A DNA stretch of 64,000 nucleotides from Thermococcus camini (lineage in GTDB: Archaea; Methanobacteriota_B; Thermococci; Thermococcales; Thermococcaceae). The number at the start of each line of letters is the position of its first letter. Position 1 is the stretch's first letter. The stretch is taken from the NCBI RefSeq assembly GCF_904067545.1, contig NZ_LR881183.1, positions 748,277 to 812,276 of the forward strand, in the 5' to 3' direction. The position numbers and the translations under genes were made by a program. Shown piece after piece: positions 2,927-35,063 of this stretch. The notes under the pieces were generated by a model. That model did not search any database and was not told where the DNA came from. It saw only the letters and a list, made by a program, of their open reading frames with translations.

Positions 2927-3616
2927 ATGCGGGCGTGGGAGAAAGGAGTGATAATGGGTGCCAGGGTCATCGTTTTTCTTGGTCTGATCAGCGCTCTAAG
3001 TTACGGAAAAACGGATCAAATCTATGCCGCCGTGACTGGCTTCGTCTCACTCTTTGTACCCAGCTTTGTCAGATGGGTTTATTCCAAGCCAAGCCGAAAG
3101 ATATGGCCGTGGGTCAGCCCCTTCTACAACGACAGCATCTACGCCCTCTTCGCGATATTCATGGCGGCCCACATAACTTTTCTCAACGTCCCCTTCCTCC
3201 AGCTCGACCTGTACAACCAGTTCTGGAAGGGTGCTGACATACCGAGCCACTACCTTGGCGGCCTCGTGACGTGGGTTATATTCAACGAGGTCGTTCTGGA
3301 ATCGTCAAGAACCTACAACCTCCACTGGAGTTCGCTGAGAATAGTCTCCATAAGCCTCCTGGCCCTTGTTCTCGTTGGGGTTGCCTGGGAGTTCTTTGAG
3401 GTGGCCCTCCAGCCGGACATGCCCTGGCTCTACGAGAGTCTGAGGAATAAGACCCAGGACGTTGTTATGGAGCTGCTCGGCTTTGGAACGGGAATACTTA
3501 TGGTCTTCAAGCTGGAGTACCCGTACTCCATGAAGAAGCCCCTCGAAAACGCTCCCGTGGGGTTTGGGACCACGTCCGTTGATATACTTCCCCAGCCGGA
3601 CCACGTGAAAGAATGA
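2927..3616 (+). CDS. Integral membrane protein resembling the DUF2238/YjdF group, 229 aa
   Basis: Several membrane helices are visible (about residues 10-50, 65-90, 105-120, 135-155 and 175-190). A WEFFEVAL motif is followed about 25 residues later by KTQDVVMELLGFGTG. This spacing resembles the WEFxE...DTxxDM pattern of DUF2238 (YjdF-like) membrane proteins, whose role is unknown. The start is supported by GGTGAT five bases upstream. It is convergent with the agmatinase gene, leaving only 6 bases between them. The family assignment is tentative. Confidence 0.7.
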   Translation: MRAWEKGVIMGARVIVFLGLISALSYGKTDQIYAAVTGFVSLFVPSFVRWVYSKPSRKIWPWVSPFYNDSIYALFAIFMAAHITFLNVPFLQLDLYNQFWKGADIPSHYLGGLVTWVIFNEVVLESSRTYNLHWSSLRIVSISLLALVLVGVAWEFFEVALQPDMPWLYESLRNKTQDVVMELLGFGTGILMVFKLEYPYSMKKPLENAPVGFGTTSVDILPQPDHVKE

Positions 3617-33536: not shown

Positions 33537-33797
33537 TCAGGCCTTGGAGGCCGTGACACGCTTGGCGACCTTTCCGGCAGGAGTGGTCGGCAGGTAGGCA
33601 CCGCCGGCGAAGGTGGCGCCGCACTTCTGGCACTGCCATATGCCCGTGCTTATCCTCCTGACGGCCTTCCTTCCGCAGACCGGGCAGACGTGCTTCTGCT
33701 TCATCTTGGCCTCAACAGCTGCGACCCTTCTCCTGATCTTAAGACCGTACCTCGGACCGTATCTTCCGGCTGAACCAACCTTAGTAGTCCTTCCCAT
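33537..33797 (-). CDS. rpl37ae: Large-subunit ribosomal protein L37Ae (eL43)
   Basis: 86 residues: [18 protein letters not shown], a basic helix, a zinc ribbon with Cys38, 41, 56 and 59 (CPVC, CQKC), and [12 protein letters not shown] near the end, all standard for eL43. The start at 33797 follows GGGGTGATGCTC. A TATA box (GGTTTATAAAACG) is at about 33855-33867. This is the first gene of the informational group running leftward. Confidence 0.96.
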
Positions 33798-33872
33798 GAG
33801 CATCACCCCTAACTATCAACCGATTTTCACGACTGGAGAGTGTTTCCGGGGACGTTTTATAAACCTTTGCCT

Positions 33873-34956
33873 GGAAACTTTGGGGAGCAAAGTCCCATCA
33901 AAGTTCGCGGTTCCCTCAAACCCGCCGGTTGATGGAAGATTCCCTTATAAAATTTATCCGAGCGCTGAAACTTTGTCGGGCAAAGTTTCATCAAAGTGTG
34001 TGATTGAAGCTTTTGGGAAAAGCTCCACCAAAGAAACTTTTCTTGCGAAAAGTTTCATCAAAGTTTGTGATTCCTCTTCCAAAAGGTGCAGTTGAAAAGG
34101 GTTTGCACTATCAAACTGCCATTTTAAGCTGGAATTCACATTTCACAAGCCTCAAAACAGGGGTTTAAACCATCAAAGCGCTCCAACGGAGCGCGGAAGA
34201 AGCAAACCCACTTAAACAAGGCAATTTCAAAAAGGAATTCTTCACCAAAAACCACACTCAATGAGGCAAACCACCTCAAAAAAGCGCCTCAAAAACGAAT
34301 CGCCAACCTTGATCAAACTCTGCGGGACTGTCGTCCCTTGCGTCGAGCAAAGCTCGACATCGCGCAGGCGAACAAGCTTTAGGAAAGCTTGACCAAAGAA
34401 CGCCCTTTCCCATTCAAAGGAGCAAAAATAGGTTGTGCGCTGATGGATTGGGCAATTCTGAGGCGAGTTTGACATTAAGTAGGAGCTTTTGAATAGTTTC
34501 AGTCCATTTTTGGCGTCCTTTGGACGCCGTTTGAAGAGTGAAACACTCATGGGGGAGCAAATTGGAACGAAACTCCTTTCAAAAATTGCCAATTTTAGAA
34601 CGGGCACTTCATTTTCCGCCAGCGCTGAAGCTTTTGGGAAAAGCTTCACCAAAAGTTTGTGGCTCCACTAAACTTGAACGTGCTTAAGTGTGATTATTCT
34701 AAGTGAAGAGCTTTCAACGCGGAATCCATTCGCTTTACAAGTTAAAAGGGAGTTCTCCCCCATTGACGCCCTCCGGGCGTCGGTTTAAAAACGAACTCCT
34801 CTAAAAAGAGCGTGCCTTAACGAATTCCAACATTCTAAGGCTTAAACTCACACGATAATCACACTTTAGAAACAAGCCCTGAGGAGGAGCCACAAACCTT
34901 GATCAAACTTCGCGCAGGCGAAGTTTGTAAGGGGGGCATTTGAGCTGTCGCCCCCC
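33873..34956. repeat. Gene-free tract with at least twelve short hairpins, several of one family
   Basis: Between L37Ae and 35064 no credible gene is seen. Family-A hairpins have 8-10 bp stems followed by AYCAAAG: 33873-33896, 33966-33990, 34006-34026, 34033-34056, 34373-34391 and 34626-34648. Their stems differ by paired changes (GAAACTTT/AAAGTTTC versus GAAGCTTT/AAAGCTTC). Other stems: 34178-34194, 34324-34337, 34342-34358, 34512-34528, 34536-34548, 34765-34781, 34904-34927 (10 bp) and a GGGGGG/CCCCCC pair at 34931/34951. The short frames inside it lack ribosome sites and family resemblance. Confidence 0.75.
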
Positions 34957-35063
34957 TGGGGGTCCCGACGTCATCGCAACCCCATACTCGTCGGGCAGAT
35001 TTATATTGGTACAAAAAGATAAAAGCCTTCTGGGATTAGCATCATCTATGGGAGGCAAACGGT

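Follow-up and report, generated by a model that had tools for sequence, protein, structure and literature searches.

The window, a 64-kb stretch of DNA whose coordinates are used for all positions below, comes from a 2.02-Mb genome in one contig, referred to here as the own genome. Between positions 33841 and 34970 it contains 12 exact hairpins (stem at least 7 bp, loop 3-14), where 300 dinucleotide shuffles give a mean of 1.6 (sd 1.3, maximum 6). Of the 57 such hairpins that the entire window contains, 11 fall in the 1-kb bin from 34001 alone. These figures bear out the count of at least a dozen stems in about 1.1 kb given in a first-pass annotation of this DNA. Its report of a repeated stem-plus-AYCAAAG layout also holds: read directly from the sequence, a stem followed by AYCAAA(G) is found at 33966, 34008, 34033, 34373 and 34626, at 34904 on the opposite strand, and in a degenerate version at 33874. 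That annotation missed that the hairpins are the ends of longer palindromic units, members of a family found behind tRNA genes genome-wide. The tract is a stack of three such units (A, B and C), with remnants, of a Thermococcaceae repeat family. The interval had been described as gene-free. There is indeed no long gene inside the tract, whose longest ORF (136 aa, minus strand) runs across two units, and no tRNA gene within the 64-kb window, but on its right-hand side the interval runs into a conserved small-RNA-like gene. The features are as follows.

33537..33806, minus strand: ribosomal protein L37Ae gene (PF01780, 4.4e-34).
~33856-33863: L37Ae promoter region (TTTATAAA), the other edge of the tract, kept in empty loci.
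33874..34032: older unit-end remnants, comprising a degenerate end (33874-33899) and end hairpins at 33966-33990 and 34008-34024, each with a tail.
34033..34320: unit A, with left end hairpin 34033-34056, centre hairpin 34178-34194 and a tail-to-tail length of 272 bp (34049-34320); mirrored boxes GTGATTCC/CGAATCG, GGTTTGC/GCAAACC, GGAATTC/GAATTC and GGGGTTTAA/CAAACCC, at matching distances from both ends.
34321..34372: right end of unit A with an extra inserted double hairpin, reading GGGACTGTCGTCCC, then GTCGAGC-AAA-GCTCGAC, then GCGCAGGCGAA.
34373..34625: unit B (variant), with an AAGCTTT-type left end hairpin (34373-34391), centre hairpin 34512-34528 and right end 34612-34625 (CCGCCAGCGC, half of a 'type II' end hairpin).
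34626..34927, no strand: unit C, the most complete unit, with end hairpins 34626-34648 and 34904-34927, centre hairpin 34765-34781 and a tail-to-tail length of 271 bp (34641-34911); mirrored boxes GTGGCTCC (34659-34666)/GGAGCCAC (34886-34893), each exactly 18 bp from its end, GGAATCC (34721-34727)/GAATTCC (34822-34828), and GGAGTTC (34749-34755)/GAACTCC (34793-34799).
34929..34996, minus strand: small-RNA-like gene whose 3' end, GCCCCCCTT, is the anchor of the stack.

Unit C is read as the newest of the stack, followed in age by B, then A, then the remnants. Unit A has an 80% identical copy behind tRNA-Pro in the own genome. Extra hairpins like those at 34321..34372 also occur inside the end hairpins behind tRNA-Leu(caa), tRNA-Leu(gag) and tRNA-Lys(ttt), and the insertion point of this ~40-base double hairpin is the same in the copies seen (34321-34372; loci L013, L024, L011 and others).

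A unit is an imperfect palindrome, in which an end hairpin is followed by an AYCAAAG tail, a series of boxes spaced at about 30 bp and a GC-rich hairpin at the centre, after which the same elements recur in mirror image. The whole unit measures ~300 bp and the tail-to-tail distance ~270 bp. When each hairpin end plus tail is joined to the nearest inverted right end, with no upper limit on length, 60 of 84 pairs fall at 260-279 bp, and 11 closely spaced plus/minus pairs among the matches listed from an independent pattern search of the family genomes measure 260-267. A second class of end, 'type II', reads CAGCCCTTTGC...GCGCTGGCGGAA. Removal of similar units from a set of 68 (235-330 bp) left 60 that are non-redundant, with a mean aligned identity of 50%. 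For 53 units of 262-278 bp the length has an sd of 3.3 bp, whilst ungapped spacer identity is 31% against 26% expected from composition. Conservation along the unit peaks at ~13-25, 52, 83 and 112 and at the centre (134), so that successive peaks are roughly 30 bp apart, and the profile has an autocorrelation of 0.46 at lag 29, a value reached by 1.6% of block-shuffled profiles. The boxes hold their places, as judged by medians and quartiles: Box 1 (GTRRYTC) begins at position 18 in the majority of halves, with Box 3 (GAATTC/GGATTC/GAGAAC) at 79-82 and Box 4 (GGGTT and variants) at 106-111. Retention of length and box spacing whilst the sequence drifts points to selection acting on the geometry of the DNA and not on its sequence.

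At 20-30 (z 3.5) and 80-90 (z 6.1) the two arms of a unit resemble each other more closely than they do arms taken from other units; in the spacers the arm-to-arm match is not above that between different units. Box variants co-occur within units, GTGATTCC with GAATTC and a GCGCTCC centre, and GTAGCTCC with GAGAAC and a GACGCCC centre. Since such subfamilies exist, the arm-matching signal derives from few independent events. Folding of the unit interiors is stronger than that of dinucleotide-shuffled sequence (mean z -3.1 for the first 25 of 54 selected units). The idea that the whole unit is one continuous long hairpin or RNA gene was dropped: unit C alone folds well, and across units the spacers mismatch arm to arm.

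The end hairpins are another matter. Among 69 distinct 30-base sequences with four-base loops, chosen by motif with pairing not required and including about a dozen chance motif matches, 84.8% of stem cells are paired. Changes on both sides of the stem number 82 against a shuffle mean of 32.5, with none of 500 shuffles as high, and every slid control lies far below. A wider set of 148 end hairpins has G-C at the first position of the stem in 60 cases and C-G in 49. The paired stem changes seen in the first-pass annotation, and the selection on base pairing that it deduced from them, are therefore supported for the end hairpins. Covarying end stems and well-folding interiors would also be expected if a structured non-coding RNA were made from each unit, and a family of small structured RNAs had been one of the earlier proposals. 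It is poorly supported: the units give no Rfam match at gathering score, arm pairing occurs in discrete boxes, arm matching above that of other units is limited to two blocks with no compensatory changes along the whole stem, and the two strands look alike. We consider an RNA of this kind extremely improbable.

Constraint on the boxes can be followed in place. Over 10 orthologous unit comparisons, in which some loci entered more than once, 57 of 1474 box positions have changed against 82 of 1181 in spacers (odds ratio 0.54, p 4e-4). The G000-G011 pairs account for the effect; for the two remaining genome pairs both rates are low and similar. With paralogues admitted to a looser set, the figures are 117/1627 for boxes and 172/1292 for spacers. 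Because the division into boxes and spacers was taken from the profile of a larger set including some of the same loci, the test lacks full independence, and the lower rate in boxes could be partly due to, or mimicked by, gene conversion. Constraint in place exceeds what is expected of a dead insertion, and a host function may thus be primary.

The tract gives 48 BLASTN matches at ~21 places in the own genome, nearly all directly behind tRNA genes. By a loose motif test that includes type II ends, a unit end lies no more than 7 nt from the CCA in 24 of 46 tRNA genes (ARAGORN predictions in the stretches taken). A stricter test, which asks for a perfect hairpin with a stem of at least 7 bp starting within 8 nt, finds one on the 3' side of 18 of the 46 and on the 5' side of none; the corresponding counts are 17/44 and 0/44 in G011, and 5 and 0 among the 22 tRNAs fetched from G013. 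As for the 22 unoccupied tRNAs of the own genome, another tRNA directly follows five, and behind Arg-ccg a unit end is found ~75 nt away. The stack at 1875 kb in the own genome abuts the C/D box RNA sR36. The rule is not strict: no known RNA gene lies beside the 413-kb stack or the 205.8-kb end in the own genome, and some copies elsewhere stand behind protein genes.

Among the latter, at L133 and L163 a unit end comes after the stop codon and a T-rich stretch of a gene whose product ends in GLGALFG, by eye ribosomal P1/L12-like. Such ends indicate that the 3'-end rule may extend to strongly expressed protein genes. As a separate observation, a PemK/MazF-like toxin gene with its RHH partner and a PIN-domain gene with its RHH partner lie between unit ends behind tRNA-Ile:

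L009 3201-5107 (own genome ~203.7-205.6 kb): toxin and PIN gene pairs between unit ends.

The position behind RNA genes brings transcription into consideration. A unit may act as a two-way terminator or insulator, stopping RNA polymerase both from the side of the small-RNA gene and from the opposite side, with the hairpin next to the RNA helping to form the mature 3' end and units being selected at very active RNA genes. Archaeal intrinsic termination uses T runs, and half-units read inward are rich in T (36%, with A at 24%; each half has on average 2.0 runs of T4 or more and 0.75 of A4 or more; 106 halves). The strictly 3' placement at tRNA genes and the constraint on boxes in place agree with this, and there is a parallel in the palindrome downstream of Methanopyrus kandleri tRNAs, proposed as a 3'-maturation signal (PMC5217627). 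Nevertheless, 22 of 46 tRNA genes do without a unit, some family genomes have almost none, and three-unit stacks with a 270-bp ruler far exceed the needs of a terminator. We treat termination as a serious but unlikely explanation.

The stack in the window has at its right edge a stretch, 34929-34996, which looks like a small-RNA gene and is presumably transcribed. It is found in 76 of 94 Thermococcaceae genomes, across all six genera and including genera without units, in nearly all cases as one full-length match of 84-100% identity; one genome has a partial match alone and another a second, partial match. The predicted fold comprises two hairpins, and comparison with Rfam gives no match. An H/ACA guide RNA was suspected from the TTACA end. 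This reading was dropped because the ACA comes in with the unit, most empty loci being without it, and because Rfam returned nothing. The 3' end of the gene could be located in 27 of the 30 loci fetched, where it is met by a type I end in 13, a type II end in 8 and neither in 6, and the position of unit ends of both types is always identical. As this gene abuts the tract, the window tract follows the same RNA-gene 3'-end rule.

Occupancy differs between relatives. Behind the same tRNA, the own genome, G013 and G011 carry different units or none. Unit C is present at the orthologous locus in G013 and absent from that in G011, where the complete type II end of unit B touches the small-RNA gene directly. 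In G013 a single unit fills the space between the convergent genes for tRNA-Asp and tRNA-Lys, with an end against each, whilst G011 has two units there. G018 and G006 have no such hairpins from the L37Ae promoter to the small-RNA gene; at the G007 locus there is one end, together with a stretch resembling unit B that carries a type II end. In genus g11 many of the ends that follow tRNAs are broken (intact hairpin in 10 of 27 loci fetched), and in genus g10 one of three loci fetched is intact. An apparently clean empty site at tRNA-Ser(cga) in G013 and G011 was discounted as proof of insertion, since the flank resembles a unit interior minus the end hairpin. Between the divergent tRNA-Lys and tRNA-Leu, G011 has ~840 extra bases compared with the own genome and G013 (L099, G011:C1:1522696-1523646).

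Variation in presence and absence, turnover across the family and the many g11 copies with broken hairpins behind tRNAs would all be accounted for if the units were plain, MITE-like copies of a non-autonomous transposon, in varying stages of decay and with no role in the host. Decay alone would hardly be expected, however, to keep the length fixed (sd 3.3 bp over 53 units) whilst spacers fall to 31% identity against 26% by chance, or to leave boxes conserved in orthologous copies, and we regard it as very unlikely.

The family appears to be restricted to the Thermococcaceae, as far as searched. DNA of the tract matches 25 of 25 genomes of the genus searched, with conserved flanks only among the matches listed for three of them (G002, G006 and G018), and 0 of 16 from other genera of the class. 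The refuting condition named in the first-pass annotation, a lack of copies in related genomes, clearly does not hold, copies being abundant and their architecture conserved. A pattern of tRNA 3' end plus AAACTT occurs in 82 of 94 family genomes, at 0 to 19 per genome (reversed control, one match). The tail-box pattern occurs in 63 of 94 (control, none), with 0/9 in genus g9 and 0/7 in g11. When a 26-base pattern was searched against the genomes of 84,980 species, 44 of the 44 stretches matched were named Thermococcus or Thermococcaceae. Of the 45 matches, 17 directly follow a tRNA and one more (L122) follows a visible tRNA 3' end; one is cut off and 26 are elsewhere; these last lie mostly inside stacks, with two behind the gene for the GLGALFG product and one behind another protein gene. 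Viral contigs and plasmid and phage records, queried with one pattern and single units, contain nothing similar, and a mobile vector was rejected on this result. A literature search that covered few subscription papers found no description of the repeat family, which may be in print elsewhere.

Dispersal over ~20 places also invites an architectural interpretation, and a chromosome-organising site had been among the proposals of the first-pass annotation. The phased boxes may nucleate a TrmBL2, histone or SMC-type complex beside highly transcribed RNA genes, acting for example as a roadblock to loop extrusion. Phasing at ~30 bp over ~270 bp and the in-place constraint are consistent with this. 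TrmBL2 reportedly stalls SMC at tens of loci in T. kodakarensis, according to a 2025 report. It is reported to bind both double- and single-stranded DNA (PMC4877046). A copy number running from 0 to ~20 between species of one genus is nevertheless odd for an essential architectural site, and such a site would have no need of exact anchoring a few bases after the CCA. We regard chromosome structuring as improbable.

What is observed is that the units are palindromic and of fixed length, and that they begin at the 3' ends of genes for tRNAs and other small RNAs; that they differ in presence and number between close relatives with their boxes conserved in place; and that they can form stacks in which the copy closest to the RNA gene is the most complete. 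The interpretation that we prefer, and to which we give an even chance, is of a targeted, stacking, non-autonomous element forming a putative symmetric protein-binding platform. What we infer is that an enzyme inserts the units at their targets, that a protein binds the boxes and that the host benefits. A recombinase encoded by the host or by an element would act in trans, placing new units exactly at RNA-gene 3' ends, which we propose are a safe target because both the RNA and the neighbouring gene stay unbroken. A further unit would enter via the end hairpin of the previous one. The mirrored boxes, ~30 bp or about three helical turns apart, would be bound by a protein to give a symmetric complex across ~270 bp, and it is proposed that the unit persists because of this binding. 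The end hairpins, being capable of forming cruciforms, may serve as exchange points at which units are gained, lost or re-tipped. Seen more broadly, the units may constitute a previously undescribed ruler-built, mirror-symmetric platform at RNA-gene 3' ends, a putative two-way transcription stop or chromosome-folding roadblock that can spread and stack; this fuller version is possible but doubtful.

No target-site duplication was visible by eye, either at the far ends of 24 listed units or between empty and occupied small-RNA loci. Nor was a partial tRNA copy or fragment seen by eye at those 24 far ends; two of them lie at a whole convergent tRNA gene.

A number of parallels can be drawn with known systems. 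The REP, BIME and REPIN sequences of enterobacteria and pseudomonads are intergenic palindromic units, found in mosaic arrays and as inverted hairpin pairs with a flanking motif at the 3' ends of transcription units. The units described here resemble them in being many, short, intergenic and palindromic, and in occurring in inverted pairs. They differ in their fixed length of ~300 bp, their boxes phased at 30 bp and their exact anchoring at the 3' ends of small RNAs. Furthermore, the own genome has no match to the Y1 (RAYT-type) transposase family PF01797, which the control search found in 5 of 14 named genomes, and a RAYT-driven REP system was rejected for this genome on that result. The earlier suggestion of a REP-like array thus stands as regards appearance, but not as regards the hairpins, which are the ends of fixed-length palindromic units, or the transposase, which is absent from this genome. 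MITE-type repeats such as ERIC, Correia and RUP are likewise non-coding, palindromic intergenic repeats of fixed length, and here the end hairpins, with their inverted tails, form terminal inverted repeats. Copies within those families stay highly similar in sequence, whereas the interior of these units has diverged with length and box positions kept.

Casposons are archaeal elements with a preference for the 3' end of a tRNA gene or the 3'-distal part of a gene (PMC6614799), and they share with the units insertion at the 3' end of a tRNA gene. The units, by contrast, have no genes inside, no target-site duplication was seen by eye at 24 listed units, and the window tract contains neither a Cas1-type casposase nor a DNA polymerase gene (longest ORF 136 aa). 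The closest published parallel that we have seen is again in M. kandleri, a hyperthermophilic archaeon in which about half of the tRNA genes are followed, at a set distance, by the palindrome CGTTA-N9-TAACG. It is a single palindrome of ~19 bases located ~10 bp downstream, not a long unit, and its authors report it from no other genome (PMC5217627).

In Thermococcales, tRNA genes and the sequences adjacent to them are hot spots of recombination, both for Int-pTN3-type integrases and as endpoints of inversions, and integrase att sites lie inside tRNA genes (PMC5495485). At the units, in contrast, the tRNA genes are intact and no partial copy was seen (by eye, 24 listed units). The units do supply many tRNA genes with short downstream repeats, in places at which Thermococcales chromosomes are known to undergo inversion. 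Downstream synteny is lost at 16 of 43 occupied and 5 of 20 unoccupied tRNAs (comparisons with conserved upstream sequence); the two are not clearly different and a rearrangement hot spot is therefore not claimed.

A gene-dense hyperthermophile genome thus carries, at ~20 places, a non-coding element that keeps its length and box spacing whilst its sequence drifts. Its exact placement behind RNA genes would make the targeting of RNA-gene 3' ends by archaeal elements testable in genetically tractable Thermococcus, as well as the question of how the borders of highly transcribed loci are marked in archaeal chromatin. Behind some tRNAs there is another recurrent module, CAACGAAAGACAAGGGGGCTCCGCCCCCTTATCTCTCTGTACTCTCAAACCCCCG together with a GGGG/CCCC hairpin (L026 ~3030-3105; L102, L106, L109), part of which (GAGAGTACAG) also stands before unit ends in L154 and L157.
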